Shown: in pieces, positions 4,231-20,726 of the stretch | Layout: the number at the start of each line of letters is the position of its first letter | Numbering within the stretch: the first letter of the stretch is position 1 | Assembly: GCA_021847305.1 (NCBI GenBank) | Contig: JAJZTZ010000009.1 | Location: 1-36,983, forward strand | DNA from: Pseudomonadota bacterium | GTDB lineage: Bacteria > Pseudomonadota > Gammaproteobacteria > Burkholderiales > JAJZQI01 | Length of the DNA: 36,983 nt | Direction of reading: 5' to 3' | The notes under the pieces: model-generated | The model's input: the letters and a program-made list of their open reading frames with translations, nothing else | Database searches by the model: none | Told to the model about the DNA's origin: nothing | Program-made: the position numbers and the translations under genes

Positions 4231-4242
4231 TTTTTACTCCTG

Positions 4243-4520
4243 GGGCGTGTTAACACTTATTTCGCGTCTGCGACGGGGGTCAATTGGGATACCGCCCGCG
4301 AAGCAAGACGCGCTGCATTGCAGGCCACTGCAAGCGGCTTGCGACAAAGGGGGGTGCCCAATTCACCCCCGTCCCGTAGGGTTGCATCAAAGAGGCGCAG
4401 CTGCCGCGTTGCCTGGCTGGTGCAGGGAATAACCCTTCCCTGCGCCCGATATATTCAGTACGCCTTGCATCTGTCGCCTCTTTGATGCAACGCAGGCGTG
4501 AAGTAAGTGTTAACACGCCC
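4243..4520. mobile_element. MITE-like non-coding element with 29-bp terminal inverted repeats
   Basis: The 296-bp gap between the two DUF1989 genes is almost entirely one element. Ends 4243-4271 and 4492-4520 are inverted copies (outer 17 bp GGGCGTGTTAACACTTA perfect, then three mismatches in the inner part). Nested inside are further inverted repeats: GTTGCATCAAAGAGGCG at 4381-4397 against its exact complement at 4475-4491; GACGGGGGTCAATTGGG near 4272 against 4357-4373 with one mismatch; and the hairpin GCAGGGAA/TTCCCTGC around 4422-4443. No credible gene is inside. A target-site duplication is not obvious. It resembles a miniature inverted-repeat transposable element or a dispersed palindromic repeat. 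It lies inside the operon transcript, 7 nt after the UAAP1 stop codon. Confidence 0.75.
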
Positions 4521-4526
4521 TGCATC

Positions 4527-5264
4527 CTAGCGAAACAGACGTTCGGTATTGGCAAAGCCGCGCTGGTTTTCGGCGCAGGCATTGCGGCACTGGTCGTCGG
4601 GACCGGCGGTGCCGGAATGCCAGGCGATCAGTTTGAGCGGCTTCGGGGTGTATTGCGGATTGGCATCAAGCGGATGCGGGTTGCTCGACAGCGCCACCAG
4701 CACGTTCATGTCGCAACGCAGGTCGATGTAGTCGCCGGCCTTGGAGTTGCCCGCCACATAACGCATGCTGCCGTCGTCTTCCACCATCACCTTGCTGAAG
4801 AAATTAGCATTGGCCATCAGATCGCGCTTGCCCAGGCCGTATTTACCCACCTCGATCAGCAGACTGTCCCTGGCGTTGCGGTACATGGCGTTGTGCTGGG
4901 CCTGGTACGGGGCATCGCCGTATTTCGCGCGAATCTGCGCTGCATCGGTCATGCCGCTGAGGGTGTCGTGCCAGCCGCAAGTATCGGCCGTCACGGAACA
5001 CAACACCCGCCCCATGTCGGAATAAAGCACCCGGCCGACGGTCAGGTAGGCGATGTGCTGGGCCTTCAGGGTATCCGGCATGTTGTAGCGTTCCAGCTTT
5101 TCATCGGCGTTGTAGAACACCGTGGAAATGTTGGCCCCGCCGTCCAGGTCGATCAGACGCAGGGTGGTACCGCGGCGGATGATGCCACTCCAGTGCGTGC
5201 CTGCCGGCACGTCCTCTTCCCACAAAACCAGGTGGGGGTCGATATTGAAAGGGCTTTCGCTCAT
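4527..5264 (-). CDS. Carboxyguanidine deiminase subunit, DUF1989 (urea carboxylase-associated protein 1)
   Basis: 245 residues, DUF1989 family, the urea carboxylase-associated protein 1 type. It is expected to act with the 213-residue partner as carboxyguanidine deiminase, releasing ammonia and yielding allophanate. The family motif appears as DTCGWHDTLSG near residue 95, followed by KRDLMANANFFSKV and DLRCDMNVLVALSSNPHPLD. The C-terminal tail (GPDDQCRNACAENQRGF) carries two extra Cys. SD GGAGAG about 7 nt before the ATG supports the start. It lies 28 nt downstream of the ABC ATPase gene. The long gap after it is filled by an inserted repeat, so coupling to the second subunit is unusual here. 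Cytoplasmic. Confidence 0.92.
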   Translation of the reverse strand: MSESPFNIDPHLVLWEEDVPAGTHWSGIIRRGTTLRLIDLDGGANISTVFYNADEKLERYNMPDTLKAQHIAYLTVGRVLYSDMGRVLCSVTADTCGWHDTLSGMTDAAQIRAKYGDAPYQAQHNAMYRNARDSLLIEVGKYGLGKRDLMANANFFSKVMVEDDGSMRYVAGNSKAGDYIDLRCDMNVLVALSSNPHPLDANPQYTPKPLKLIAWHSGTAGPDDQCRNACAENQRGFANTERLFR

Positions 5265-5292
5265 GATTTAACTCTCCGTCTTCTTGTCAGGC

Positions 5293-6126
5293 TCAGGCCT
5301 GTTCCATATTCAGTTGTTCCAGCATGCTCTGGTCGGTGCGCATGCCGGATGTATCGCGAATGCGTGCCAGGATTTCCTTTTTCAGCGCCAGGAATTCCGG
5401 CGAATGCTTCATGTCCTGATCGCGCTGGGCCGGCAACGGTACATCGTAAATGGTGTCGATACGCCCGGGGCGCGGCGCCATCAACACCACGCGCTGACCG
5501 AGGTAAATGGCTTCTTCCACATCGTGGGTTACAAACACGATGGTGGCTTTTTCCAGCTTGTGCACGTGCAGAATCAGGTCGTGCATCACTTCACGGGTTT
5601 GCGCATCCAATGCGCCGAACGGCTCGTCCATCAGCAGAATCTCCGGCCGCCCCATCAGCGCACGGGCAATCGCCACACGCTGCTGCATGCCGCCCGACAG
5701 CTGATTGGGATAGGCATTGGCCGCTGCCTGCAAGCCCATCAGCGCCAGCAGCGCATCAGCCCGGCCGGATGCCTTCTCCACCTCGCTGGAGGTGAGTTCC
5801 TCCCTGCCATGTTTCAGCTGCCGGCTGAATTTGATGTTTTCCATCACTTTCAGCCAGGGATACAAGCTGTAGTGCTGGAACACCATGGCACGATCGGCAC
5901 CCGGACCATACACCGGCTCGCCGGAAGCCAGCACTTCACCCGCCGTGTGGTATTCCAAGCCGCCGATAATGCGCAGCAGAGTGGATTTACCGCAGCCGGA
6001 GGCGCCGACGAAGGTGACAAATTCGTTGTCGGCTATGGTCAGATTGATGTCCTTGAGCGCCTCGACAGCTTGCTTGCCTTCGCCGAATACCTTGCCGACC
6101 TGTTTGATTTCGATTTTTGTGGTCAT
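5293..6126 (-). CDS. ABC transporter ATP-binding protein, nitrate/sulfonate/taurine type (putative guanidine importer)
   Basis: 277-residue ATPase powering an import ABC transporter. Walker A GASGCGKST is at residues 41-49; also visible are signature LSGGMQQRVAIARAL, Walker B EILLMDEPFGALD and switch VFVTHDVEEA. Family is SsuB/TauB/NrtD-like. The ATG at 6126 is chosen because GAGGAA lies 8 nt upstream; a GTG at 6132 would sit directly against that SD and overlap the permease stop. Ligand is inferred as guanidine or a guanidino/urea compound from the riboswitch and the adjacent guanidine-degrading genes. Confidence 0.92.
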   Translation of the reverse strand: MTTKIEIKQVGKVFGEGKQAVEALKDINLTIADNEFVTFVGASGCGKSTLLRIIGGLEYHTAGEVLASGEPVYGPGADRAMVFQHYSLYPWLKVMENIKFSRQLKHGREELTSSEVEKASGRADALLALMGLQAAANAYPNQLSGGMQQRVAIARALMGRPEILLMDEPFGALDAQTREVMHDLILHVHKLEKATIVFVTHDVEEAIYLGQRVVLMAPRPGRIDTIYDVPLPAQRDQDMKHSPEFLALKKEILARIRDTSGMRTDQSMLEQLNMEQA

Positions 6127-6128
6127 GA

Positions 6129-6950
6129 TCACTTCCTCAGGTAAAGCCAGGGAAAGGCTTTGCGGTGGGCGAAACGGAACAGCTGATCCATCACCAGCCC
6201 GATCAGGCCGATGAGGATGATGCCGACGAAAATCTTGTCGGTTTGCAGGAAACGCTGGGCTTTCAGAATGGAGTAACCCAGCCCGGAATTAGCCGCCACC
6301 AACTCGGCCACCACCAGATAGGTCCAGGCCCAACCCATGGTGACGCGCAGGGTATCCAGCAGCGCCGGCTTGGCCGACTGGAAAATCACCCGCTGGATGA
6401 TCTCGCTACGGGTCGCACCCATGGTCTGAGCCGCCTCGATCTGCGCCAACGGCACACGACGCACGTCTTCGGCCATCATCAGCACCATCTGAAAAAAGGT
6501 GCCGATCCAGATGATGGCGATCTTGGACGACTCGTCGATGCCTATCCACAGCATCACCAGCGGAATGAAAGCCACGGCCGGCATGTAGCGGATGAAATCG
6601 GTCAGCGGCTCCAGCATGGCCTGCACCGGACGGAAGGTGCCGATCAGCAAGCCCAGCGGCAGCGCGATCAGTGCCGACAACAAGAAACCCGCTGTCACAC
6701 GGTAAATACTGATCCACATATCGGCCAGCAGATCGTCTTCCTGATACCACTGGATCAGCCGGCGAAACACATCCAGCGGGCTGGGCATGAACACACTGTC
6801 ATCGGTTCCCATATGAGACAGCAGCCACCAGCCGAGCAGCGGCAGCAGCAAACCGACCAGGGCAAAACCCCAATACTGGCGCCGGCTCATCGGCCCGCGG
6901 ATTGACCATATGCCTGGCCGGGCAGAGCGTTGGGGACTTTTTCGTCGCAT
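6129..6950 (-). CDS. ABC transporter permease, nitrate/sulfonate/taurine type (putative guanidine importer)
   Basis: 273-residue inner-membrane permease with about six membrane segments, the first around residues 28-47 (WGFALVGLLLPLLGWWLL). The cytoplasmic EAA loop reads EAAQTMGATRSEIIQRVIFQ and docks the ATPase. Relatives are SsuC/TauC. The start at 6950 has AGGA 9 nt upstream; ATG 6890 is a possible internal alternative. This is the first gene after the riboswitch, about 125 nt downstream of its conserved 3' core. No periplasmic binding-protein gene lies between riboswitch and permease, although most such clusters carry one there. Confidence 0.92.
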   Translation of the reverse strand: MRRKSPQRSARPGIWSIRGPMSRRQYWGFALVGLLLPLLGWWLLSHMGTDDSVFMPSPLDVFRRLIQWYQEDDLLADMWISIYRVTAGFLLSALIALPLGLLIGTFRPVQAMLEPLTDFIRYMPAVAFIPLVMLWIGIDESSKIAIIWIGTFFQMVLMMAEDVRRVPLAQIEAAQTMGATRSEIIQRVIFQSAKPALLDTLRVTMGWAWTYLVVAELVAANSGLGYSILKAQRFLQTDKIFVGIILIGLIGLVMDQLFRFAHRKAFPWLYLRK

Positions 6951-7732: not shown

Positions 7733-8941
7733 TTAGCGGAGGTCGAACAATTCGATCCAGTGGCGTACGGGAATGCCGGATCCGCTGGCCAGGTGCATCT
7801 GGCAGCCGACATTGGCGGTGACAATCTGTTCGGGCTGGCCGCTGTTAAGCGCCGCCAGTTTGTTATGCAGCAGTTGTTGCGACAGCTCCGGCTGCAGAAT
7901 CGAATAGGTGCCGGCCGAACCGCAACAAAGATGGGCATCCGGCACGCCGGTAAGCGTAAACCCGGTGCGTTGTAATAATGCCTCCACCGCATTGGGCAAC
8001 TTCTGGCCGTGCTGCAGTGTACAAGGAGCATGCACGGCAATGGGGCCGGCCTTGGCCGGCTGCAGGCGCGACAGATCCTCCTGCAGCAGGATTTCCACCA
8101 GATCGCGGCTCAGCGCCGATACCCGCGCGGCCTTTGCCGCATAGGCAGCATCTTCGTGCAACAAGTGGCCGTAGTCTTTTACCGTCACGCCGCAGCCGCT
8201 GGCCGTCACCACAATGGCTTCCGCCCCCGCCTTGATATGCGGCCACCAGGCGTCGATATTGCGGCGGGCGAAATGTTTCGCTTCCTCTGCCGCACTCATG
8301 TGCTGACTTAGCGCACCGCAGCAGCCCGTTTCGCCGATTTCCAGCAGGGTAATGCCGAGCCTGTCCAGCACGCGCGCCGCGGCGGCATTGGTCAGCGGTG
8401 TGGCGGACGGCTGCACGCAACCCTGCAGCGCCAGCATGGTGCGGACATGACGTGTAACAGGCCAGGCGCCGGCCTGCTGCGGCTGCGGTAGTTTGGCGCG
8501 CAACGCGGCAGGCAACAGGGGTGCAGCGAGGCGCCCCAGCTTGAGCAAAGACGCAAAGCGGTTACGATAAGGAATGACGGTGCGCAAGGCGCGACGTAGT
8601 AGGTTTTCTTTAAATGAACGGCCAACCTGCTGTTCCACCACGGCACGGCCGATGTCGACCAGGTGGCCGTACTGCACGCCCGACGGGCAGGTCGATTCGC
8701 ACGAACGGCAGGTGAGGCAGCGATCCAGATGGGTCTGGGTTTTTTCCGTCGCCGGCTGCCCTTCCAGCACCTGCTTGATCAGATAAATGCGTCCGCGCGG
8801 GCTGTCCAGCTCGTCGCCCTTGATCTGATAGGTCGGACAGGTGGCGGTACAGAAACCGCAATGCACGCAGGAACGCAGAATGGCATCGGCTTCCTGACCG
8901 GCAGCGGTGTTCTTGAATGCATCGCTCAGGGACGTTTGCAT
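7733..8941 (-). CDS. glcF: Glycolate oxidase iron-sulfur subunit GlcF
   Basis: 402-residue Fe-S subunit of membrane-associated glycolate oxidase, passing electrons from GlcD/GlcE flavins toward the quinone pool. Two ferredoxin-type 4Fe-4S motifs are seen: CVHCGFCTATCP (Cys 25, 28, 31, 35) and CLTCRSCESTCP (Cys 75, 78, 81, 85). CCG-domain motifs follow: ETGCCGALSQH, HAPCTLQHG and LCCGSAGTYS. Length is normal for GlcF. The start lies 1 nt after the glcE stop. It is the last gene of the operon that begins with the ThDP enzyme. No malate synthase or glcG follows as in E. coli. Confidence 0.95.
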   Translation of the reverse strand: MQTSLSDAFKNTAAGQEADAILRSCVHCGFCTATCPTYQIKGDELDSPRGRIYLIKQVLEGQPATEKTQTHLDRCLTCRSCESTCPSGVQYGHLVDIGRAVVEQQVGRSFKENLLRRALRTVIPYRNRFASLLKLGRLAAPLLPAALRAKLPQPQQAGAWPVTRHVRTMLALQGCVQPSATPLTNAAAARVLDRLGITLLEIGETGCCGALSQHMSAAEEAKHFARRNIDAWWPHIKAGAEAIVVTASGCGVTVKDYGHLLHEDAAYAAKAARVSALSRDLVEILLQEDLSRLQPAKAGPIAVHAPCTLQHGQKLPNAVEALLQRTGFTLTGVPDAHLCCGSAGTYSILQPELSQQLLHNKLAALNSGQPEQIVTANVGCQMHLASGSGIPVRHWIELFDLR

Positions 8942-8942
8942 C

Positions 8943-10013
8943 TTATAAGCCTTCGTACATGCGGCCGGGGTTGAGAATACCGGCCGGATCGAAGGCCTGC
9001 TTCAGCCGTTGGTGCGCCTGCCAGAGGCCGGCGGGCAAAGGCTGGAAAGCATCCGAGCCGCTACCACCATGCAGCAGGGTAGCGTGACCACCGAGTGCGG
9101 CCACGGCGGCACGTACCTGCTCGATCGACGCAGCGGTTTTCAGCCAGCGTTGCGCCCCGCCCCACTCCAGCAGCCAGTCGCCCGGCAGTTTCGGCTGATC
9201 GGCCGTTTGCGGCAGGGCGATGCGCCACAAAGAAGCGGCTTCGGCGAAGAAAGGCAGCTGCAGTTCGCGCAGGCTGCGCCAGAACGTGGCCGCGTCCACC
9301 AGCACATCGCCCGCCACGCGCTGTTTGACGGCCGCTACAGCGCTCTTTGCACCGGCAAAGCGCAGATACAGGTAACCGTCCACCCAGGCGGAAGCCGACA
9401 GCGGTACCGGTTGGCCAGCCAGTTTATTCATCTGTTCCAGTGCAGCAGGCAAGGTGGCCGGCTGCACCAGGGTGAGCTTGTCCTGCGGCACGGGCAGCAC
9501 TTTCAGGCTGACGTCCAGCAGCACACCCAGGGTGCCCAGTGCGCCCGCCATGAGGCGGGCGGCATCATAACCGGCCACGTTTTTCATCACTTCGCCGCCA
9601 AAATGCAGCAGCTCACCCTTGCCGTTGATCACATGGCAGCCCAGCACGAAATCGCGCGCCGAACCGGCATACGGGCGACGCGGGCCGGACAGATTGCAGG
9701 CGATGGTACCGCCCAGTGTGGCATTCGGTCCCCAGTGGGGCGGCTCGAACGGCAGCAGCTGGCCTTTTTCCGCCAGCGCCGCTTCAATTTCTGCCAGCGG
9801 CGTACCGGCCCGTGCCGTCAACACCAGTTCGGTCGGTTCGTAGCTGTTAATGCCGCTGTGGCCGGACACATCCAGCACAGTTAACTCAGCGCCTGTGGTT
9901 TGCCGGCCGTAAAACGCCTTGCTGTTGCCGCCGACGATTTTCAGCGGGGTTTTGCCGGCATAAGCCGCCTGTACCTGTTGTTGCAGGGAAGCAGTGAGAT
10001 CGTTTGCCGGCAT
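8943..10013 (-). CDS. glcE: Glycolate oxidase FAD-binding subunit GlcE
   Basis: 356 residues; the second flavin-binding subunit of glycolate oxidase. The FAD_binding_4 PP-loop region reads LKIVGGNSKAFYG...GPNATLGGTIACNLSGPRRP, with GEVMKNVAGYDAARLMAGAL, and the C-terminus ends FDPAGILNPGRMYEGL as in GlcE. The reading frame is open far upstream, but the start is set at ATG 10013 (MPANDLTAS), which shares its A with the glcD TGA (TGATG), the usual coupling in glcDEF operons. Confidence 0.94.
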   Translation of the reverse strand: MPANDLTASLQQQVQAAYAGKTPLKIVGGNSKAFYGRQTTGAELTVLDVSGHSGINSYEPTELVLTARAGTPLAEIEAALAEKGQLLPFEPPHWGPNATLGGTIACNLSGPRRPYAGSARDFVLGCHVINGKGELLHFGGEVMKNVAGYDAARLMAGALGTLGVLLDVSLKVLPVPQDKLTLVQPATLPAALEQMNKLAGQPVPLSASAWVDGYLYLRFAGAKSAVAAVKQRVAGDVLVDAATFWRSLRELQLPFFAEAASLWRIALPQTADQPKLPGDWLLEWGGAQRWLKTAASIEQVRAAVAALGGHATLLHGGSGSDAFQPLPAGLWQAHQRLKQAFDPAGILNPGRMYEGL

Positions 10014-11506
10014 CAGAACCGCTCCAGCTCGGGAAACGGCAGCTTGCCGTCGTGCACATGCATGGCGCCGAATTCGGCGCAGCGGTGCAAGGTCGGCACG
10101 GCCTTGCCCGGATTGAGCAGGCCCTGCGGGTCGAAGGCATGCTTGATGGCGTGAAACTGGGTCAGCTCGGCACTGTCGTACTGCACACACATCTGATTGA
10201 TCTTTTCCATACCCACACCGTGCTCGCCGGTGATGCTGCCGCCCACCTCGACGCACAGCTCGAGAATCTTGCTGCCGAATTCTTCGGCATTCGCCAGCTC
10301 GCCCGGTTTGTTTGCATCGTACAGAATCAACGGGTGCAAATTGCCATCGCCGGCGTGGAACACGTTGGCCACCGCCAGACCGTATTGCTGCGACAATTCG
10401 CCGATGCGGCGCAAGACAAAAGGAAGGTGACGGCGCGGTATCGTCCCGTCCATGCAATAGTAGTCGGGCGACAGGCGACCCACGGCGGGGAAGGCCGACT
10501 TGCGCCCTTTCCACAACAACGCCCGTTCCTGCTCGTCGCGCGCCAGCCGCACTTCGGTGGCACCGATGTCTTTAAGAATGGCCTGCACCTGCTCCACCTG
10601 CTCGGCCACTTCTTCGCACGTTCCATCCAGCTCGCACAGCAAAATGGCTTCGGCGTCGCGCGGGTAGCCGGCATGGGCGAAATCTTCCGCCGCGCCGATG
10701 GACAGCTTGTCCATCATTTCCAGCCCGCCCGGGATGACACCGGCCGCGATGATCGCCCCCACCGCGGCACCGGCTTTTTCCACGTCGTCGAACGCCGCCA
10801 GCATGACCTTGGCTTTTTCCGGCACCGGCAGAAGCCGCACGGTCACTTCCACAATCACGCCCAGCATGCCTTCCGAACCGGTCATCAGCGCCAGCAGATC
10901 GTAGCCGGCGCTGTCCAGTGCTTCGCTGCCGACCACCAGCAGGTCGCCCTCGATGGTCACCAGCTTGATCTGCAGGATGTTGTGCACCGTCAGGCCGTAT
11001 TTCAGGCAATGCACGCCGCCGGAGTTTTCCGCCACATTGCCGCCGATGGTGCAGGCGATTTGCGACGAGGGATCGGGCGCGTAATACAAACCATATTGAG
11101 ACGCCGCCTGGGAAATAGCCAGGTTGCGCACGCCCGGCTGCACCCGTGCGGTGCGTGCCAGCGTGTCGATAGCCAGAATGGATTTCAGTTTTGCGAGGCT
11201 CAGCAGCACGCCATTGGGATGCGGCAGCGCGCCGCCGGACAGGCCGGTACCGGCACCGCGCGCCACCACTGGCAGCCGGTGCTGATGACACAGCCGCATG
11301 ACGGCCTGCACCTGCCCCACCGACTGCGGCAGCACAGTCACCCAGGGCAGTTGCCGGTAGGCGGACAAGCCGTCGCATTCGTATGGACGCAGGTCTTCCT
11401 CTTCAAACAGCACGCAGTCAGCCGGCAACAGCTGCAGCAACTGTGCCACCAACTCGGCTTTGCCGATAACAGGAACGTGATCGTGCTCGCAGCCGTGTTG
11501 CGACAT
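10013..11506 (-). CDS. glcD: Glycolate oxidase FAD-linked subunit GlcD
   Basis: 497 residues; catalytic flavoprotein subunit oxidising glycolate (and often D-lactate) to glyoxylate. FAD-binding motifs: VVARGAGTGLSGGALP, APDPSSQIACTIGGNVAENS, LMTGSEGMLGVI. C-terminal catalytic region: VFHAGDGNLHPLI, GGSITGEHGVGMEK, FDPQGLLNPGK. Length equals the E. coli protein (499). Start overlaps the kinase stop by one base (TGATG), so the five genes ThDP enzyme, kinase, glcD, glcE, glcF appear to be one transcript. Confidence 0.96.
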   Translation of the reverse strand: MSQHGCEHDHVPVIGKAELVAQLLQLLPADCVLFEEEDLRPYECDGLSAYRQLPWVTVLPQSVGQVQAVMRLCHQHRLPVVARGAGTGLSGGALPHPNGVLLSLAKLKSILAIDTLARTARVQPGVRNLAISQAASQYGLYYAPDPSSQIACTIGGNVAENSGGVHCLKYGLTVHNILQIKLVTIEGDLLVVGSEALDSAGYDLLALMTGSEGMLGVIVEVTVRLLPVPEKAKVMLAAFDDVEKAGAAVGAIIAAGVIPGGLEMMDKLSIGAAEDFAHAGYPRDAEAILLCELDGTCEEVAEQVEQVQAILKDIGATEVRLARDEQERALLWKGRKSAFPAVGRLSPDYYCMDGTIPRRHLPFVLRRIGELSQQYGLAVANVFHAGDGNLHPLILYDANKPGELANAEEFGSKILELCVEVGGSITGEHGVGMEKINQMCVQYDSAELTQFHAIKHAFDPQGLLNPGKAVPTLHRCAEFGAMHVHDGKLPFPELERF

Positions 11507-12834
11507 CAGCCGGCGTTCCCGCGCAGTCGGTTGTATACGGTGGCCAGCGCGTGCTCGTCACCCACGTTGCCGGGGAAGATCACCACCGGCAGGTCGGGAT
11601 AGCGCGGGTGGTAATCCGGACAGCGCACCACCGAGCACCCGGCAAGGATCTGCCCCACCACACGCGAAGTGCGCAGTGCCAGACCGTCGCTCAGCACGTC
11701 GTTGGAGGTAATGCCGCCCTTGCTGATAAGAAAACCGATGCTCACCGGCAGGTTGCTCACCACGTCCATCAGAAATGCCGACACCTGTTCGCCGAAGGCC
11801 AGGCGAGTGGCCTGGTCGGCAAAGGTTTTCTCCACCCGGGTGGTATACACCGCCGGCGTCTCGTTGCGTGCATGAACCGCCTCGGCCGCCAGACGGACTT
11901 CCTCCAGCAGGGCGTCGCGAGCGGGGCCGATGCGTTCGACATCGACTTCCAGCCCAACTACGCCCGGCTGTTTAAGCAACTCCGCCAACTGCGCAGTGGT
12001 TTTCTTCACGTGCGAACCGACAATAACCGCGCCGGCACGCCCGCCGCGCACGTAGGCAGCCATCTGCTCCGGCGCCACCGGCTGCGGACCGAGTTGCGCC
12101 AGCGAAGTCAGCAAGCTGGCCGCGCTGCGGAACAGAAAACGCTTGCCGGTGGCGGCCGCGGTCTGAATCTGCGCGGCAAAACGGTCCAGGTCGGACTGCT
12201 GCTCGGCATCCACCACGCCGCACACATTGTCTTTCAGCGCCAGCAGACGGGCGGAAATATCGCCGCGCACGTCTGTCAGGGTGAAGCGTTCCACCTGTTC
12301 GGCGGCAATGCGGCCGCGGGTTTTTTCCGCCACGTAGTCGGGCAGATGGCTGTGACGGTAGCCGAACACCGAATCGCGGGCGAATTCGGTTTCATGCACC
12401 GGCACCGGCTCGCCGTTGACCATCAGATAATGGATGCTGCCGCGCGTTACCCGGCCGCCCTCAAAAAATGCCGGCACCAGAAAATGCGCGTCGAACGGCC
12501 CGAGTTCCTCGGCGATCACATCGGTTTCCACCGGATAGTGACCGCGCAGGGTGGAATCCGAACGGCTCACCAGAATCGGATTGATCGAGCGGCCAGCGGC
12601 TTTCTCCAGATCCAGTGCCACACGCACGTTGGCGCACACCTCGCGGGTGACCGCCTCGGCACGCGCGGCCGACATGCCGCGGGTATTGGTCAGCACGAAA
12701 AACAGCGGCGACGCGTCCTGCAGGGCACCGACCAGGGTCGGCACATCCCAGCGGGTCAGCAGCAGGCAGCCGTGTACCGTCTGCGACCCGGTCGGGTCGT
12801 CGTCCAACACAATAATCTTGGTTTGCTGGCTCAT
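11506..12834 (-). CDS. Four-carbon acid sugar kinase family protein (DUF1537; OtnK/DtnK-like)
   Basis: 442 residues, cytoplasmic kinase of the family that phosphorylates threonate, erythronate, 3-oxo-tetronates or related sugar acids. The N-terminal substrate domain begins IIVLDDDPTGSQTVHG (residues 7-22) and continues with TNTRGMS and SRSDSTLRGHYPVE. The C-terminal nucleotide domain shows IVGSHVKKTTAQL, LISKGGITSNDV and VIFPGNVGDEHAL. The exact substrate cannot be read from sequence. Placed between a ThDP-dependent lyase-like enzyme and glycolate oxidase, it probably activates a sugar acid whose cleavage yields glycolate or a product routed through glyoxylate. SD is weak (GGAAAAGG). Confidence 0.9.
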   Translation of the reverse strand: MSQQTKIIVLDDDPTGSQTVHGCLLLTRWDVPTLVGALQDASPLFFVLTNTRGMSAARAEAVTREVCANVRVALDLEKAAGRSINPILVSRSDSTLRGHYPVETDVIAEELGPFDAHFLVPAFFEGGRVTRGSIHYLMVNGEPVPVHETEFARDSVFGYRHSHLPDYVAEKTRGRIAAEQVERFTLTDVRGDISARLLALKDNVCGVVDAEQQSDLDRFAAQIQTAAATGKRFLFRSAASLLTSLAQLGPQPVAPEQMAAYVRGGRAGAVIVGSHVKKTTAQLAELLKQPGVVGLEVDVERIGPARDALLEEVRLAAEAVHARNETPAVYTTRVEKTFADQATRLAFGEQVSAFLMDVVSNLPVSIGFLISKGGITSNDVLSDGLALRTSRVVGQILAGCSVVRCPDYHPRYPDLPVVIFPGNVGDEHALATVYNRLRGNAG

Positions 12835-12905
12835 GGCCTTTTCCGTTTCTTGCCTATAACCCGATCAGGAGGCCACCTGCGGGCAGGCAGCCCCCGAGCG
12901 GAAAT

Positions 12906-15095
12906 TTACTTCAGCAGCGCTTTGGCACGTGCGGTCATGGCATCGGCGGTGATACCGTTGAATTCCATGATCTCGTCGGCCGAAGCGGTGGTTTCGCCGC
13001 GTTTCCAGCAGAAAGTATCACGTTTCGGCGCGCGGGTGCGCAACAGAACCGGCTCCAGCGAAGCGCTCGGACCGCCGCTCACCGCGATCAGCGCATCGCC
13101 GTCGAACAGCGCATTGAAATGGTCGTCGTCCATGAACGCATTGTCCGGCTGCGATACGGTATCCCAGGCCACGTCGGTCGGGCGATACAACGCACGCGGG
13201 TTCACTACGGCAACGATGCGTACCGAATAGCCCTCAGCTTCCAGCTTGTCCTTGGCGGCAAATACCGGCAGCAGCACCATGTCGCCGGTGGCGGCGAACA
13301 CCACCGTGCCTTTATCACCGCCGGCGCTCTGGTAAATCGTCGCCGCCCCCCTCTCAACCGCCTGCTTCGATTCAGCCAGGCTCATGTATACCGGCAACGG
13401 GCTCTTGGAGGCGATGATGACCATGCCCTTGTTCACGCTGCTGGTGGCGTACTCATACACGGTCTGGATCGAGTTCGCATCGCATGGGAACAACGGGAAC
13501 ACGTTGCCGTTACGCATCATGGCGGCAAAGAAGTTCTCGATTTCCGGGCGCTGGTGGGTCCAGCCGTTACGGCCCTGCTCCAGCGCCCCGGCCGTGAACA
13601 TGCACACGATGGACGGTGTCTTGCGGCGCAGTTCGGCCATGGCCTGGGTCACCGTCTGGATGATCGGCCAGCCGTTGATGGCGAACGATTCGTACGACAG
13701 CCACAGCGAACGGGAGCCGAACAGCGCCAGACCCGCCGCCAGACCCGCACAGGCGTCTTCGTTCAGCGGCTCGTATACCTGACCGTTGGGTTCCTGGTTG
13801 TACAGCGGATCCACGGTTGGGTGACGGATTTTCAGCGCATCGTTGATGTTCTTCATGGCCGAAGCTTCATTACCGTCAGCATTGGTCACCACGAAACGCG
13901 CATCGGCCTTGCCCATCTGCGCAACCAGCGCACCCATGGCGGTGGCCGGTACCGCCTTGTCGGTCGGCTTGAACTCTTCCATCGCCAGTTTCGGCATGGC
14001 CACAATATCCAGTTCGGTCTCGGTTACCGCGGTCTTCACAGCGGGGCCGCCACCGGCGCGCGAGAAGTTGTCGCGAACGATCTGCCAGGCTTCGGGCGGC
14101 AGGGCGCGGCGCTTCAGGCCTTCGATGATGTGCGGCTGGTCGAGCGTGTCCTTCGGGTACAGGTTGTGCGACTTAGCGCCCACGGTGTGTACGCCGGAAC
14201 CCTTCAGCTGCTTGATGATGAATGCCGTCAGCGTGCCGCCCAGTGCGGAACGCGCCGCCTTGTCCACACCCTGCAGTACGGCCTTGGCAAACGCCAGGCG
14301 CTGGCCGTGCGAGAAGTGGGTACTGTCGACATAAGCACCGCTCTGCTTGCTGTCGTCGAATTCCTTGGCGTCTACCAGCACCACTTCCTTGAAGCCGTGG
14401 CCTTTCCAGTAGGCGATCATCTCGTCATTGCTCATGCGCGACACCATGGAGTGGTGTTCCTGCGAGTAACCGTTCCATACCAGTACCGGCAGGAAGTTGG
14501 TGATGCTCGGGTAGGCGGTATTGAAGTGCATCATGCTGTTCAGCACGTACGGCTCGCCCATGCCGCCGTCGCCGATGGTTACCGGGAACAGTTTGCCCGG
14601 ATGCAGCAGCGCGCCGGCCATGGCGAAGTGCTGGCCCTGACCCAGCGGACCGGCCGGAGCCAGCAGACCGGGAATGGCGCCGGACAGGTGACCCAGCAGA
14701 CCGTGCTTCTCACGGAAACGCTTCATCATGTCGTCCATGGTGTTGATGCCCATTTCTTCCAGCGAGGAATCGAGGAACATGGAAGAGTAGAAGCCCGGCG
14801 CATGGTGGCCCACCTCGGTCACGATATTGGTGTGGCCCAGCATGATCAGGGAGGCGTGCGCCTCGGCGCTGGAGGCAAAACCGCCCGGGTGGCCGGAGCC
14901 TTTGGAGCCGGTCACCTGCAGCGTCAGGTAACGCAGTGCGTCCGCACCCAGCAGGGTCTGGTAGGCGGCTTCGTCGCTGACTTCGGCGATGGCGCTCTGG
15001 CCTTCGGCGATAAGCGCCTTGGCTGCCTTGGTGTCGAAATCCGGCCACTTCTCGCCGTAATGCTGAATGCCCTGACAGAATGCGGGTGCGTTCAT
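12906..15095 (-). CDS. ThDP-dependent transketolase/phosphoketolase-like enzyme
   Basis: 729 residues. The N-terminal half carries transketolase-type motifs: SGHPGGFASSAEAH (residues 67-80), PAGPLGQGQHFAMAGAL (149-163) and the ThDP/Mg site GDGGMGEP (175-182) running to the Asn-rich ITNFLPVLVWNGY. The C-terminal half reads like phosphoketolase: LNEDACAGLAAGLALFGS, LWLSYESFAINGW, GRNGWTHQRPEIENF, PCDANSIQTVYEYA, ASKSPLPVYMSL. It is shorter than phosphoketolases (about 790) and longer than transketolases (about 660). Start is ATG 15095 with GGAG 8 nt upstream; the frame stays open further but without a ribosome site. First gene of the sugar-acid kinase/glcDEF operon, divergent from an IclR regulator. 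Likely cleaves or transfers a two-carbon ketol unit; substrate unknown. Databases probably call it transketolase. Confidence 0.85.
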   Translation of the reverse strand: MNAPAFCQGIQHYGEKWPDFDTKAAKALIAEGQSAIAEVSDEAAYQTLLGADALRYLTLQVTGSKGSGHPGGFASSAEAHASLIMLGHTNIVTEVGHHAPGFYSSMFLDSSLEEMGINTMDDMMKRFREKHGLLGHLSGAIPGLLAPAGPLGQGQHFAMAGALLHPGKLFPVTIGDGGMGEPYVLNSMMHFNTAYPSITNFLPVLVWNGYSQEHHSMVSRMSNDEMIAYWKGHGFKEVVLVDAKEFDDSKQSGAYVDSTHFSHGQRLAFAKAVLQGVDKAARSALGGTLTAFIIKQLKGSGVHTVGAKSHNLYPKDTLDQPHIIEGLKRRALPPEAWQIVRDNFSRAGGGPAVKTAVTETELDIVAMPKLAMEEFKPTDKAVPATAMGALVAQMGKADARFVVTNADGNEASAMKNINDALKIRHPTVDPLYNQEPNGQVYEPLNEDACAGLAAGLALFGSRSLWLSYESFAINGWPIIQTVTQAMAELRRKTPSIVCMFTAGALEQGRNGWTHQRPEIENFFAAMMRNGNVFPLFPCDANSIQTVYEYATSSVNKGMVIIASKSPLPVYMSLAESKQAVERGAATIYQSAGGDKGTVVFAATGDMVLLPVFAAKDKLEAEGYSVRIVAVVNPRALYRPTDVAWDTVSQPDNAFMDDDHFNALFDGDALIAVSGGPSASLEPVLLRTRAPKRDTFCWKRGETTASADEIMEFNGITADAMTARAKALLK

Positions 15096-15147: not shown

Positions 15148-15206
15148 AAATACCTTACCAAATTACTTGGTATTTCGCAATACAGAATTGATTTCACAAT
15201 ACGAAA
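15148..15206. promoter_or_regulatory. Candidate IclR operator cluster upstream of the ThDP-enzyme operon
   Basis: Three dyads crowd the operon promoter. AAATACC (15148-15154) is inverted at GGTATTT (15169-15175), with a nested TACCAA/TTGGTA pair. Two near-palindromic 15-mers, TTTCGCAATACAGAA (15173-15187) and TTTCACAATACGAAA (15192-15206), are repeated at 19-bp spacing, about two helical turns. IclR proteins often bind such paired short palindromes, and the iclR-type gene is the divergent neighbour. The exact promoter elements are not resolved. Confidence 0.5.
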
Positions 15207-15244
15207 TGATGTAGCATGGTAGTCAGGACATTCAGCAAACGTAG

Positions 15245-15510
15245 CGACTGAACCAGGGGTTTGTCTTTTGGGTCCCCTTTTATTTGTCGCCGAGCGGCTG
15301 GATTTCTGGCGGGGGCTTGCGGCGAGTACTGTTCGTGCCCCGCCAGGGCGAGTTTACTCGCCACCCGCCAGAAATTCAGCCACGAGGGGAAGTCGACAAA
15401 TTCAGGGTCGCCTTTTCTTTGGGTACTTTCTTTTGGCGAAGCAAAAGAAAGTACCGCGCTGCCGGGCGCCCCCGGCCAAGAAACGCTGAACAACGAGACA
15501 AATTCAGACC
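15245..15510. repeat. Dispersed-type nested palindromic repeat between ThDP operon and iclR-type gene
   Basis: This non-coding stretch contains an 18-bp inverted pair with one mismatch (15296-15313 with 15364-15381), an inner GGCGAGT/ACTCGCC pair (15321-15327, 15356-15362), and a perfect 14-bp hairpin GGTACTTTCTTTTG / CAAAAGAAAGTACC with a 6-nt loop (15422-15455). ACAAATTCAG occurs twice (about 15396 and 15498). The hairpin type with TTTCTTTTGGCGAAGCAAAAGAAA resembles repeats scattered in many proteobacterial genomes. The short frames crossing it look like repeat-derived noise. Outer boundaries are approximate. Confidence 0.6.
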
Positions 15511-15538: not shown

Positions 15539-16288
15539 ATGAGCACAGAAACCTCCATCCAAGTTATCGACCGCATGGTCACCCTGCTGGAAAGCCTGGC
15601 GCAGCACGGCCATGCCAGCCTGAAAGTGCTGGCGGCCGATACCGGGCTGCACAGTTCCACCGCGTTTCGCATTCTCGCCTCGCTGCAGCAGCACGGCTGG
15701 GTGGCACGCGACGCCAACGGCGCCTATCAGCTCGGCAGCGGTCTGTTGCGCTACGCGGCGCAGGCGGGACAGGAAATCGACCTGCGCCAGGAAGCCCTGC
15801 CTATCATGGCCGCCCTGCGCGACGCCACCGGCGAAACGGTCAATCTCACCGTGCGCGAAAACGACGAGGTGATCTACGTCGAACGCGTCACCTCCAACCG
15901 CCTCATGCGGGTGGAGCAGGTCATCGGCAGCCGCGCCCCGCTGCACGTCACCGCCGTGGGCAAACTGATGCTGGGCGAAGATACGGCCGAGGCCTGCCTC
16001 GACTACGCCCGCCGCACCCACCTGCCGGCCTATACCGCCAACACCATCACCGAACCGCTGGCCCTGTTCAACGCGGCGCAACAGGCGAAGAAGCAGGGCT
16101 TCGCCTATGACGACGAAGAAGCCGAATTGGGCGTGGGCTGCATTGGCGTACTGGTGCGTGATGGCAGCGGCAAAGCCGTCGCCGGCCTGTCCATTTCGGC
16201 CCCGCGCGAACGGCGCAAGGATGAGTGGGTGGAATGGATGCAGAAAGCGGCTAAAGAGCTGTCGCAAAAGCTGGGATTTTTCGGCTAG
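15539..16288 (+). CDS. IclR-family transcriptional regulator
   Basis: 249 residues. N-terminal winged helix-turn-helix, roughly residues 5-68 (VIDRMVTLLESLAQHG, LAADTGLHSSTAFRILASLQ, GAYQLGSGLLRYA), then the IclR effector-binding domain with VNLTVRENDEVIYVERV, LHVTAVGKLMLGE and GVGCIGVLVRDG. It is divergent from the ThDP enzyme/kinase/glcDEF operon and probably controls it through the operator cluster near 15148-15206; the ligand would be a pathway intermediate. No clear SD precedes ATG 15539; a later ATG near 15572 would cut into the DNA-binding domain, so the first is preferred. Confidence 0.9.
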   Translation: MSTETSIQVIDRMVTLLESLAQHGHASLKVLAADTGLHSSTAFRILASLQQHGWVARDANGAYQLGSGLLRYAAQAGQEIDLRQEALPIMAALRDATGETVNLTVRENDEVIYVERVTSNRLMRVEQVIGSRAPLHVTAVGKLMLGEDTAEACLDYARRTHLPAYTANTITEPLALFNAAQQAKKQGFAYDDEEAELGVGCIGVLVRDGSGKAVAGLSISAPRERRKDEWVEWMQKAAKELSQKLGFFG

Positions 16289-16391: not shown

Positions 16392-16892
16392 ATGCTGCGC
16401 AAACACACCGCCTTTTCCCTTATCTCCGCTTTGCTGGCCTTGGCACCGGCCGCCCATGCCGCCGACACCATCAGCAACACCAATATCGGCATGGAACTGG
16501 CGCGCGACCTGGCCAACGCCGCCGTGCTGGCCTGCCGCGCCGACGGCTACCAGGTGAGCGCCGTGGTGGTGGATCGCAATGCCATCGTGCGGGCCGAACT
16601 GCGCGACGATCTGGCGCCGCGTTTTACCCTGGAAATCGCCGAGCGCAAAGCCAATCTCAGTATCATGGGCGGCGCGGATTCCGGCAGCGTGGTGAAAAAC
16701 CGCGCCGATCTGCGCATGGAACTGGACAACATCGGCGGGCTGATCATGATGCAAGGCGGCGTGCTGGTTGAAGCCAACGGTCAGCGAATTGGCGCCATCG
16801 GCATCAGCGGCGCACCGGGCGGCGACAAGGATGAGGTCTGCGCCAGGAAAGCTGTTCAGTCCTTGCAGGAACGCATCGAATTCGGCGCCTGA
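16392..16892 (+). CDS. Exported GlcG/HbpS-like protein (DUF336)
   Basis: 166 residues. A signal peptide of about 23 residues ends AAHA|AD, so the protein is periplasmic. The mature part is a GlcG/HbpS (DUF336) domain: LANAAVLACRADGYQVSAVV, RAELRDDLAPRFTLEIAERKA, GGVLVEANGQRIGAIGISGA, GGDKDEVCARKAV. Family members include E. coli GlcG (cytoplasmic, in the glc operon) and haem-binding HbpS. Here the exported form, and the TonB receptor and PepSY genes that follow, favour a haem/iron or small-ligand role, although the glycolate genes are also near. SD AAGGA is 9 nt upstream of the ATG. Two Cys remain in the mature form. Confidence 0.85.
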   Translation: MLRKHTAFSLISALLALAPAAHAADTISNTNIGMELARDLANAAVLACRADGYQVSAVVVDRNAIVRAELRDDLAPRFTLEIAERKANLSIMGGADSGSVVKNRADLRMELDNIGGLIMMQGGVLVEANGQRIGAIGISGAPGGDKDEVCARKAVQSLQERIEFGA

Positions 16893-16921
16893 GCCCCGTT
16901 CCGCCGCCCCGCTATCTTCCC

Positions 16922-16965
16922 TGTGACATGTTGTTGCCGTCTCGCTACTGCGACAATATGTCACA
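16922..16965. promoter_or_regulatory. Long-spaced dyad upstream of the TonB receptor gene
   Basis: TGTGACATGTTG (16922-16933) and CAATATGTCACA (16954-16965) are inverted copies with one mismatch, separated by 20 nt. No T-tract follows, so it is unlikely to be a terminator. It could be a regulator-binding dyad for the receptor gene; half-sites resemble TGTGA-type operators. Confidence 0.35.
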
Positions 16966-16988
16966 TTCCGCCGGCATTTCCCTGGCGG

Positions 16989-17023
16989 TAAGATGCGACG
17001 CTAATTCGTTAGCGAGCGTCTTA
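16989..17023 (+). promoter_or_regulatory. TTCG-capped leader hairpin abutting the TonB receptor start
   Basis: TAAGA...CGCTAA-TTCG-TTAGCG...TCTTA folds into a hairpin with a UUCG loop and an internal loop, ending 1 nt before the ATG at 17025. No Shine-Dalgarno is seen outside it, so initiation may depend on opening this structure (structural control inferred). Confidence 0.4.
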
Positions 17024-17024
17024 C

Positions 17025-19301
17025 ATGAACAGCAAAAACCGCCTGCCTCTCACACTGCTTGCCACACTTGCCCCGCTGTCACTGGCTCACGCCGCGCCAG
17101 CCGATGACATCATCGAACTGGCGCCCATCAACGTGCAGGCCGAAAGTCTGCCGAGCGAGCCGGTCAACCAATCCGTCACCAGCGAAAGCGTCACCGCCGA
17201 ACAGATCAGCACCAGCGTAAACGCCGTTACCTCGGCGGAAACAGTGAAATACCTGCCGAGTATCGTGGTACGCGAACGCTATATCGGCGATCGCAACGGC
17301 ATTCTCTCCACCCGCACGACCGGCACGCTTTCCAGTGCCGGCTCGCTGGTCTACGCCGACGGCGTGCAGCTGTCCAACCTGCTGGGCAACAGCTACGCCT
17401 ACCCGCCGCGCTGGGGCATGGTGTCGCCCGAGTCCGTTGAACAGGCGGACATGCTGTACGGCCCTTTCTCGGCGCTGTACCCGGGCAACTCGGAAGGCGG
17501 CGTGCTGCTGCTGACGACCCGGCTGCCGGACAAATTCGAAGCGCATGCCGGTGTGCAGCTGATCCGGCAGCCCTTCTCGCTCTATGGCACGCAGCAAAAC
17601 TACGGCGGCAGCCACACCAGCGCCTCCATCGGCAGCCGTAGCGGCCCCTGGTCCTACTGGCTCGGTGCCGACCATCTGGATACGGTGGGCCAGCCGATGA
17701 GCTTCTCCACTGCCGCGCAAAGCGGCACAGCCGGCGGCGGCAACCCCGTGGTCAGCGGCGCCTATTACGACACCGACCAGAACGGCAACCGCCGCGTCGT
17801 TTTCGGTGGCTACAGCATCGACCACAGCGTGCAGGACAACGCCCGCCTGAAACTGGCTTACGACATCACCCCCGTCCTGCGTGCAACGTACACTTTCGGC
17901 TTGTGGCAGGTCACCTCCGATACCCGTGTAGACAGCTACCTGCGCGATACGGCCGGCAACACCTATTACAACGGCACCGTATCGCTTGACGGCAACAAGT
18001 ACACCGTCGCCGGCCTGAGCCCCGGACACGCTGAAAGCGAACACCTGATGCAGGGACTCAGCCTGCGCTCGGATACGCGCGGCAGCTGGGACTGGGAAGC
18101 GGTATTCAGCCGTTACGACTACAATCGCGATATTTCGCGCACAGCATACAACAGCGGCACGAATTCCGGCCTTGACGGCACGCCCACATCCGGCCAGCTG
18201 ACCGACATGCAGGGCACCGGCTGGAACACGCTGGATCTGCGCGGCATCTGGCGGCCGGACGGCACGCGCCGCCACCGGGTCAGCCTGGGCTACCATCGCG
18301 ACCAGTACCACCTGAGCAGCACCGCCTATGCAACGACCGACTGGCTGGCCGGCAGCCCAGTATCTGTAACCGGCGCCTCCAACGGCACCACCCGCACCCA
18401 GGCGCTGTACCTGGAAGACGCCTGGAAACTGGCGCCGCAGTGGAAACTGGTGTACGGTGGCCGCAGCGAATACTGGCAGGCGCTGGACGGCTCCAACAGC
18501 AGCGCCACGGCCACCCAAAGCTATGCCGACCGCAGCCGCACAACCTTCTCGCCCAAATTGTCGCTGTCCTGGCAGAACACGCCCACCAGCCTCGTGCGCG
18601 CCTCTCTCGGCAAAGCCTATCGTTTCCCCACCGTGACCGAGCTGTTCCAGTCCATCCGCGGCACCTCCAACAACCTGCAGAACAACCCCAATCTGAAGCC
18701 GCAGCAAGTCGTCTCCGCCGAGCTGAGCTATGAGCGTGCCGTCGACCATGGCATGTGGCGGGTTTCCCTGTTCCAGGAAAACAAGCGCGATGCGCTGTAT
18801 TCGCAGACCGATACAACGGTCACGCCGACGCTCACCAGCATCCAGAACATCGACCGGATCCGCACACACGGTGTCGAAACCGCCTTCGAGCTGCAAAATG
18901 TCGGCCTCAACGGCCTTGATCTACGCGGCAGCCTCACCTACACCCGCTCGATCATCCTGGCCGATACGCAAAATCCGGCCTACGTGGGCACCTGGCAACC
19001 CCGTCTGCCGGACTGGCGCGCCACCTTGCTGACCACCTGGCGCGCCTCTGGTGATTTATCCTATTCGCTGGGCCTCCGCTACAGCGGCCGGCAGCATGTT
19101 GTGCTCGGCAACGCCGACATCAACCCGGACACCTACGGCGGCGCCAGTAATTATCTGCTCGCCGACGCCAAGATCGTCTACCGGCTGGACAGGCAATGGC
19201 GCCTCTCGGGCGGCATCGACAACATCGGCAACCAGAAAGCCTATGTCTACCACCCCTGGCCGCAGCGCACCTATTTCGTCAGCCTGAACTATGACTACTG
19301 A
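17025..19301 (+). CDS. TonB-dependent outer-membrane receptor
   Basis: 758 residues. Signal peptide of about 23 residues (cleavage near AHA|APADD). A TonB box-like segment IIELAPINVQAES (about 29-41) is followed by a plug domain (VTSAETVKYLPSIVVRERYIGDRNG, VYADGVQLSNLLG, VEQADMLYGPFSALYPGNSEGG). The remainder is a 22-strand-type beta-barrel rich in alternating aromatic segments, with RFPTVTELFQ and NPNLKPQ motifs and the C-terminal strand ending TYFVSLNYDY (terminal Tyr, aromatic as expected for BAM recognition). Ligand not assignable by sequence; iron-siderophore, haem or vitamin are the options. Its stop overlaps the start of the PepSY gene by 11 nt, so the two are coupled. No Fur box is obvious upstream. 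Confidence 0.92.
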   Translation: MNSKNRLPLTLLATLAPLSLAHAAPADDIIELAPINVQAESLPSEPVNQSVTSESVTAEQISTSVNAVTSAETVKYLPSIVVRERYIGDRNGILSTRTTGTLSSAGSLVYADGVQLSNLLGNSYAYPPRWGMVSPESVEQADMLYGPFSALYPGNSEGGVLLLTTRLPDKFEAHAGVQLIRQPFSLYGTQQNYGGSHTSASIGSRSGPWSYWLGADHLDTVGQPMSFSTAAQSGTAGGGNPVVSGAYYDTDQNGNRRVVFGGYSIDHSVQDNARLKLAYDITPVLRATYTFGLWQVTSDTRVDSYLRDTAGNTYYNGTVSLDGNKYTVAGLSPGHAESEHLMQGLSLRSDTRGSWDWEAVFSRYDYNRDISRTAYNSGTNSGLDGTPTSGQLTDMQGTGWNTLDLRGIWRPDGTRRHRVSLGYHRDQYHLSSTAYATTDWLAGSPVSVTGASNGTTRTQALYLEDAWKLAPQWKLVYGGRSEYWQALDGSNSSATATQSYADRSRTTFSPKLSLSWQNTPTSLVRASLGKAYRFPTVTELFQSIRGTSNNLQNNPNLKPQQVVSAELSYERAVDHGMWRVSLFQENKRDALYSQTDTTVTPTLTSIQNIDRIRTHGVETAFELQNVGLNGLDLRGSLTYTRSIILADTQNPAYVGTWQPRLPDWRATLLTTWRASGDLSYSLGLRYSGRQHVVLGNADINPDTYGGASNYLLADAKIVYRLDRQWRLSGGIDNIGNQKAYVYHPWPQRTYFVSLNYDY

Positions 19302-20652: not shown

Positions 20653-20726
20653 AGCTACTTAACGGGGCATTCATTCTGCAGCAACCTGGCGGGCCGACAA
20701 TTGCGCTTTGCCTTTGGAGCTGCTGA

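Follow-up and report, generated by a model that had tools for sequence, protein, structure and literature searches.

A phosphoketolase-like enzyme and a DUF1537 kinase beside glycolate dehydrogenase: a candidate glyoxylate-salvage module of Calvin-cycle autotrophs

What does a thiamine diphosphate (ThDP) enzyme of the phosphoketolase/transketolase type do in one operon with an acid-sugar kinase and a glycolate dehydrogenase? The question is raised by contig JAJZTZ010000009.1 of a Pseudomonadota bacterium (Burkholderiales; assembly GCA_021847305.1), analysed here over positions 1 to 36,983 (the window). We call the 729-aa ThDP enzyme XFPL and the DUF1537 kinase of the same cassette KIN. With a probability of roughly three in four, the cassette is a module for the salvage of glyoxylate and phosphoglycolate (photorespiration) in Calvin-cycle autotrophs. 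That it works by ketol transfer, phosphorylation and decarboxylation to dihydroxyacetone phosphate (DHAP) is in our estimate an even bet.

The operon, its relatives and their hosts

The genes are ordered XFPL-KIN-GlcD-GlcE-GlcF on the minus strand (7733-15095), with an IclR gene divergent and upstream.

12906-15095, minus strand: XFPL, 729 aa, ATG start with an AGGAG-type ribosome site upstream; proposed glyoxylate:ketol transferase
11506-12834, minus strand: KIN, DUF1537 (SBD_N and NBD_C) acid-sugar kinase of a divergent subgroup; proposed 3-oxotetronate 4-kinase
10013-11506, minus strand: GlcD, flavin adenine dinucleotide (FAD) subunit of glycolate dehydrogenase (PRK11230, 868.7 bits, cut-off 897; TIGR00387, 555.8 bits, cut-off 567.9)
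8943-10016, minus strand: GlcE, FAD-binding subunit of glycolate dehydrogenase (PRK11282, 499.3 bits, cut-off 284)
7733-8941, minus strand: GlcF, iron-sulfur subunit of glycolate dehydrogenase (PRK11274, 649.6 bits, cut-off 333)
15173-15206, minus strand: double operator TTTCRYATTRTGAAA-N7-TGYATTGYGAAA, 77 bp before the XFPL start, 0 mismatches in the window
15539-16288, plus strand: IclR-family regulator (IclR_C, 143 bits), divergent from the operon

A preliminary description of this DNA had listed the five co-directional genes and the divergent regulator; all open reading frames (ORFs) lie where it placed them, and Pfam and NCBIfam agree with the identities that it gave. The Pfam domains FAD_binding_4, FAD-oxidase_C and Fer4/CCG are spread across GlcDEF, and GlcE and GlcF exceed their NCBIfam equivalog cut-offs while GlcD falls just under both of its own. 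KIN overlaps GlcD and GlcD overlaps GlcE by a few bases, and GlcE is almost contiguous with GlcF, so that these genes look translationally coupled; the gap between XFPL and KIN is 71 bp. A longer GlcE frame could start at 10514, and the coupled ATG at 10016 was preferred as fitting.

A scan of genome contigs for relatives of XFPL gave 65 loci, numbered below with the prefix L. Among the non-cyanobacterial loci, 47 extend far enough downstream to show what comes after XFPL, and in 46 of them it is KIN, an arrangement that is not due to chance; the 47th (L065) also has KIN after XFPL on inspection, its ORF having been called from an upstream start. Counts at the level of whole genomes (KIN, Rubisco and glyoxylate carboligase) cover 50 of the 65 loci, those omitted being mainly short contigs. 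Relatives lacking either the kinase or the ThDP enzyme would, according to the preliminary description, have spoken against its interpretation, and all 50 genomes carry both. In Candidatus Nitrotoga sp. M5 (L046, 12257-15357) XFPL is followed by a tandem of KIN genes that share 71% and 70% identity with the one in the window. In a Thiobacillus draft (L074) XFPL is broken into two ORFs, perhaps by sequencing error.

The pairing also holds in cyanobacteria, where XFPL occurs in 70 of 194 genomes (about a third). All but one of these carriers (69/70; the exception is G578) have a KIN of at least 480 bits, and KIN at this score without XFPL was found only in G552, G565 and G627; the threshold was set after a gap in the scores from 491 to 435 was seen, and weaker DUF1537 matches in 15 more genomes were counted as other family members. 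Fisher's test for this co-occurrence gave p of about 1e-47, a value to be taken as strong and not literally, since related genomes are not independent. The KIN gene of G627 has an internal stop, possibly from a pathway in decay. XFPL and KIN lie apart in the cyanobacterial loci except in Acaryochloris (L061), and 20 KIN and 20 XFPL neighbourhoods fetched from cyanobacteria did not share the pair. That both genes are kept though unlinked argues for one pathway. The cyanobacterial neighbours seen by eye, a minD-like ORF near KIN (9/20) and a P450-like ORF near XFPL (6/20), were uninformative. The XFPL and KIN distances correlate (r 0.71 for 39 proteobacterial and 0.88 for 19 cyanobacterial sequences), for which shared ancestry alone would suffice.

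Outside the cyanobacteria XFPL was found in Sulfuriferula, Mariprofundus ferrooxydans PV-1, Sedimenticola, Chromatiaceae, Gallionellaceae, Candidatus Nitrotoga, Nitrosospira, Thiobacillus, several species of Acidithiobacillus, Hydrogenophilus, Tepidiphilus and other Gammaproteobacteria; the cyanobacterial hosts are Dolichospermum, Anabaena, Richelia, Acaryochloris, Phormidesmis and others. The named hosts are mostly Calvin-cycle autotrophs, iron, sulfur and nitrite oxidisers among them. A Rubisco large subunit was detected in 46 of the 50 XFPL genomes, compared with 116 of the 398 that were sampled from the phylum; this sample over-represents one family (f40), and XFPL itself occurs in three of its genomes. 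The genome of the window has two Rubisco large-subunit matches, and one of the two contigs concerned holds ORFs that by eye resemble CbbO/CbbQ, DabA/DabB and CsoS2. The Rubisco regions fetched, which are a small part of those genomes, showed no canonical transketolase. The bin of the window contains second copies of XFPL (97% identical; G000:C39:1319-3505) and GlcD (95%; G000:C163:12968-14458), which most likely belong to another strain binned with it (bin contamination 5.87%) and did not arise by duplication. An XFPL-KIN pair on a 4-kb contig binned as Campylobacterota (L044) is either a true transfer or a mis-binned contig.

The surroundings of the pair point to glyoxylate. Of the 27 non-cyanobacterial loci whose downstream sequence exceeds 5 kb, 23 have a GlcDEF gene no more than 9 kb away and on the same strand; the others are L020 (which has a partial GlcD), L023, L026 and L046. 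A gene resembling glyoxylate aminotransferases is adjacent in L025, L040, L072 and L075; for L025 and L040 the best curated matches include the aspartate-glyoxylate aminotransferase BhcA, below cut-off. Malate synthase G is encoded beside the cassette in L022 and within loci L026, L028 and L029, and tartronate semialdehyde reductase near it in L022, L026, L029 and L065, above cut-off in the first two. Tripartite ATP-independent periplasmic (TRAP) transporters lie downstream of KIN in L024, L026 and L029.

The known carboligase route appears to be missing from the carriers. Glyoxylate carboligase (TIGR01504) scored above cut-off in none of 53 XFPL genomes (0/50 and 0/3), compared with 15 of 52 Rubisco-positive, XFPL-negative genomes (p 8e-6); the search was able to detect the enzyme in a further control set as well (1/14). 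The 52 controls were hand-picked from the 116 Rubisco-positive genomes, 36 from outside f40, with scores judged to be genuine Rubisco, and 16 from f40, and the positive ones divide between these groups as 15/36 and 0/16.

The regulator and its predicted binding site are part of the conserved arrangement. A divergent IclR gene lies just upstream of XFPL in 42 of the 46 non-cyanobacterial loci with room; of the misses, L049 and L071 probably result from mechanical ORF starts, in L043 the IclR gene is several kb off, and the upstream sequence of L044 amounts to only some 740 bp. The double operator was searched with at most 5 mismatches over 27 specified positions in 37 of the 65 loci, mainly those with enough upstream sequence and none of them cyanobacterial. 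In 36 of the 37, from Mariprofundus to Acidithiobacillus, it lies upstream of XFPL at a distance of at most 420 bp, and the remaining 592,826 bp of these loci contain two further sites, for which reason a chance palindrome was rejected. The first box has one exact match in the window and four with at most 2 mismatches (both strands), against 0.18 expected. The best NCBIfam match of the regulator is BhcR (NF045644), at 171 bits and below the cut-off of 350. BhcR, AllR and IclR respond to glyoxylate, and glyoxylate, or an acid related to it, is probably the signal for the IclR protein predicted to act on the double operator. The stretch between operator and IclR gene (15210-15500) is a long gap rich in inverted repeats (CTTTCTTTTGCTTCGCCAAAAGAAAGTA...), apparently an inserted repeat element; in L015 the IclR gene is nearer to its operator than in the window.

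Two divergent enzymes

XFPL carries the Pfam domains of phosphoketolases, XFP (49.6 bits, gathering threshold 22), XFP_N (45.4, threshold 23.7) and, barely above threshold, XFP_C (24.5, threshold 23.4). It reached neither the curated NCBIfam phosphoketolase models (at most 118.9 bits, cut-offs 777-1518) nor the transketolase equivalogs (at most 52.8 bits, cut-offs at least 488). By these scores XFPL is a distinct subgroup outside the curated phosphoketolase and transketolase subfamilies. The AlphaFold model (mean predicted local distance difference test score, pLDDT, 79) matched phosphoketolases first and transketolases next in Foldseek.

With XFP phosphoketolases (EC 4.1.2.9/4.1.2.22) XFPL shares the domains, the fold (3ai7, TMq 0.68) and the catalytic histidines, as well as the glutamine and asparagine of the QxxNGxxH stretch and the lysine at the sugar-phosphate site. 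Unlike those enzymes, which have about 790-830 aa, it is shorter, some 15-26% identical to them, carries the transketolase-like GPLGQG motif and two invariant arginines, R509 and R516, scores far under their curated cut-offs and is accompanied by KIN in each of the 50 genomes of the whole-genome count. With transketolase (EC 2.2.1.1) it has in common the fold family, GPLGQG and the proposed ketol transfer; it differs in its identity of only about 15-17%, in lacking the T-H-D-S histidine stretch of TktA and in having the phosphoketolase-type QxxN.

Residues were compared by aligning XFPL to E. coli TktA and three phosphoketolases. Shared residues are the histidines H69, H97, H136, H310 and H514, E446 as the glutamate that activates ThDP and K564 as the lysine of the phosphate site. 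Phosphoketolase residues H64, H142, H320 and H553, which according to PDB titles were mutated in crystal structures, correspond to the invariant H69, H136, H310 and H514 of XFPL. For E479, Y501, Q546, N549 and K605 of phosphoketolase we assumed the functional roles commonly ascribed to them. In XFPL the QxxNGxxH stretch of phosphoketolases is found together with the GPLGQG of transketolases. The positions of R509 and R516 are occupied by H and D in phosphoketolases, and the two arginines could, at a guess, bind a carboxylate. Both fall within residues 503-518, where the pLDDT is below 50 and the model is uninformative on glyoxylate binding. As described in part of PMC7744508, glyoxylate can inhibit bacterial phosphoketolases, an observation at least in keeping with a site for glyoxylate in this fold. 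The idea that XFPL is the ordinary phosphoketolase of the organism was rejected, since a true XFP, 68-74% identical to that of Agrobacterium and split across two contigs, is found elsewhere in the genome.

KIN is a clear DUF1537 protein (SBD_N 194.3 bits, gathering threshold 25; NBD_C 129.7, threshold 28.3). The preliminary description could name no DUF1537 pathway that matches the cassette, and this was upheld. KIN scored 64.8 bits against the D-threonate kinase (DtnK) equivalog NF047819, below its cut-off of 450, and the cassette has neither LtnD nor OtnI. On this comparison KIN is a distinct DUF1537 subgroup. Against solved structures a single-sequence search with KIN gave no match and a profile search one (E 1.2e-5), while Foldseek at E of at most 0.001 gave eight matches, which represent five proteins: four have DUF1537 in their title or annotation, and the remaining one, 3dqq, we take to be a homologue.

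From glyoxylate to DHAP: proposed route and alternatives

2-Phosphoglycolate and glycolate are the waste of Rubisco when it captures oxygen instead of CO2. In the proposed route GlcDEF would oxidise glycolate derived from 2-phosphoglycolate to glyoxylate, with the electrons probably passing to quinone, as judged from the enzyme family. XFPL would then move a C2 ketol unit from xylulose 5-phosphate, fructose 6-phosphate or sedoheptulose 7-phosphate onto glyoxylate, which would give 3-oxotetronate (2,4-dihydroxy-3-oxobutanoate) and a shortened aldose phosphate. KIN would phosphorylate 3-oxotetronate at C4, as OtnK of the DUF1537 family does. The resulting beta-keto acid phosphate should lose CO2; 3-oxotetronate 4-phosphate is DHAP with an extra carboxylate, so that this loss would yield DHAP. 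The agent may be an OtnC-type F_bP_aldolase where one is present, and otherwise an enzyme encoded elsewhere, or the step may be spontaneous. An F_bP_aldolase gene directly follows KIN in L022, L024 and L026 only, and those of L024 and L026 are below every NCBIfam aldolase cut-off listed. With xylulose 5-phosphate the net reaction would be pentose phosphate + glyoxylate + ATP to glyceraldehyde 3-phosphate + DHAP + CO2, a reaction that would lead back into the Calvin cycle; the salvage steps themselves would require neither amination nor NAD(P)H. A precedent is described in part of PMC12540250, where OtnK and OtnC phosphorylate and decarboxylate to DHAP in threonate breakdown, 2-OtnC being a protein with an F_bP_aldolase domain.

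The preliminary description had proposed that a phosphorylated keto acid or ketose is cleaved to a C2 unit while glycolate is oxidised to glyoxylate. The C2 unit and the oxidation of glycolate are retained here. Cleavage of a phosphorylated keto acid is not: the autotrophic carriers and the glyoxylate-type neighbour genes favour the reverse direction, in which glyoxylate first accepts the C2 unit and phosphorylation of the product follows.

Several points weigh against the salvage module or its proposed chemistry. Rubisco was not detected in the complete chromosome of L020, in L029 or in a Nitrosospira and a Thiobacillus draft, so that the link between module and Rubisco is not strict. A Synechocystis mutant in all three known photorespiratory branches reportedly needs high CO2, which would count against a strong fourth route in that organism if the strain carries the pair. 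XFPL retains the phosphoketolase-type Q507 and N510, and by its residues acetyl-phosphate chemistry is therefore possible. The model would release one of the two glyoxylate carbons as CO2, a greater loss than the glycerate pathway incurs, and the four loci with tartronate semialdehyde reductase fit a glycerate-type route better. No decarboxylase was found in the cassette of the window, and only 3 of the 65 relatives have an F_bP_aldolase beside KIN. Finally, the F_bP_aldolase OtnC in the cited part of PMC12540250 works with a 2-oxo kinase (2-OtnK), while our model makes a 3-oxo acid.

The alternative that survives best, though we think it unlikely, is a non-canonical glycerate pathway, in which XFPL would join two glyoxylates with loss of CO2 to tartronate semialdehyde or hydroxypyruvate, the reductase would be encoded elsewhere and KIN would be a glycerate kinase. 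The lack of glyoxylate carboligase above cut-off in all 53 XFPL genomes agrees with it. The four loci (of 65) with a reductase gene close to the cassette do so too, but the core unit IclR-XFPL-KIN includes no reductase, and none occurs in the available sequence of the other 61. The F_bP_aldolase after KIN would be left without a role in such a pathway, and we know of no transketolase-type fold for a glyoxylate-joining reaction.

We give little credence to acid-sugar catabolism, in which KIN would phosphorylate a C4 or C5 keto acid and XFPL would cleave it, the C2 unit ending as glycolate for GlcDEF. The preliminary description had named the operon a catabolic cassette for sources such as threonate, erythronate or apionate, which is probably wrong: the relatives come mostly from Calvin-cycle autotrophs, including iron, sulfur and nitrite oxidisers, and the neighbours are glyoxylate genes. 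DUF1537 kinases are indeed known from acid-sugar pathways (PMC12540250, in part), and the TRAP transporters after KIN in three loci would fit uptake of this type; yet no transporter is conserved with the cassette, and no recurrent sugar-acid dehydrogenase, isomerase or lactonase was seen in the neighbourhoods.

Equally improbable is that XFPL serves as a second phosphoketolase making acetyl phosphate, the acetyl-CoA then being joined to glyoxylate by malate synthase in support of a malate cycle. This would account for the XFP-family domains, the conserved phosphoketolase residues and the malate synthase G genes of four loci, but it leaves the kinase unexplained, and the genome of the window already has its bona fide phosphoketolase. 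Furthermore, Table 1 of PMC7486775 gives malate synthase in 0% of Acidithiobacillales and 2% of cyanobacteria, both of which carry XFPL; the part of that paper used here leaves other salvage routes for future work.

Slightly less probable again is damage repair, with KIN and XFPL detoxifying a by-product of Rubisco or some other damaged sugar acid that is confined to Calvin-cycle cells. While such a role would explain the link to Rubisco genomes, the pair is found without detectable Rubisco in L020 and L029, and the clustering of GlcDEF and glyoxylate genes with it points to glycolate carbon. That XFPL is an ordinary transketolase with incidental neighbours, as its transketolase-like fold and GPLGQG might suggest, is highly improbable given its strict linkage with KIN, its scores of at most 53 bits against equivalog cut-offs of at least 488 and its occurrence in 3 of the 398 phylum-sample genomes, 116 of which have Rubisco.

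Known systems, neighbouring genes and meaning of the module

The salvage module recalls three known systems. Like the OtnK-OtnC pathway for threonate and erythronate, it combines a DUF1537 kinase, an OtnC-type F_bP_aldolase domain (in three relatives) and a proposed DHAP endpoint; unlike it, the cassette has no threonate dehydrogenase (LtnD), isomerase (OtnI) or bypass enzymes, and the proposed acid would derive from glyoxylate and not from an external sugar acid. The beta-hydroxyaspartate cycle, which handles glycolate and glyoxylate carbon, resembles it in the regulator, with BhcR as best NCBIfam match; however, that match stays at 171 of 350 bits and the cassette holds no further Bhc genes. 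As in the glycerate pathway and malate cycle of Cupriavidus necator (PMC7486775), glyoxylate from GlcDEF would be returned to central metabolism with loss of CO2, but XFPL and KIN would stand in for glyoxylate carboligase, missing from the 53 genomes, and malate synthase, which is outside the core.

Further genes lie elsewhere in the window. At 16392-22556 successive genes encode an HbpS-like protein, a TonB-dependent receptor, a PepSY-associated membrane protein and a phosphodiesterase/sulfatase-like protein, which look like a separate iron- or heme-related group. GlcG (16392-16892) was rejected as a part of the module, because at the threshold used only the identical relative L014 has it among the 65 loci. 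Two DUF1989 proteins stand at 3589-6950 beside an ATP-binding cassette (ABC) transporter ATPase and a permease-like ORF (by eye), of urea/amide-uptake type. At 33788-36931, on the minus strand, a 1047-aa FAD-oxidase/Fe-S fusion with DUF3400 is encoded, presumably of the D-2-hydroxyacid dehydrogenase (YdiJ) type and a distant GlcD relative.

A full-text literature search, outside of which lay most subscription papers and all bioRxiv preprints, yielded no description that we recognised of the XFPL-KIN pair or pathway. Members of it may already carry other names: Synechocystis sll0529 (Pkt2/xfp2), named phosphoketolase 2 without proof in the parts of PMC7744508 and PMC9034593 used here, may be an XFPL. 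Acidithiobacillus ferrooxidans glcF (AFE_1663) is listed as a sulfur-condition gene in a part of PMC2754497, and photorespiration in non-cyanobacterial Calvin-cycle microbes was judged not to be specially adapted in a part of PMC7895386.

Aerobic Rubisco users must recycle 2-phosphoglycolate, by a route that is largely unknown beyond plants and a few model microbes, and the module offers a concrete two-enzyme candidate for the recycling of glycolate. Tentatively, and at somewhat less than even odds, we propose that it represents a further natural kind of photorespiration, in which glyoxylate would enter the Calvin cycle directly, being converted to 3-oxotetronate by ketol transfer from a sugar phosphate and then by a dedicated kinase and decarboxylation to DHAP. 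Its users would be bacteria that oxidise iron, sulfur or nitrite, together with roughly one in three cyanobacteria. If this is true, a widespread cyanobacterial "phosphoketolase/transketolase" would have to be reassigned, a key enzyme having been hidden under those names. It would also provide a short, nitrogen-free parts list for photorespiratory bypasses, with no amination, carboligase or malate synthase.

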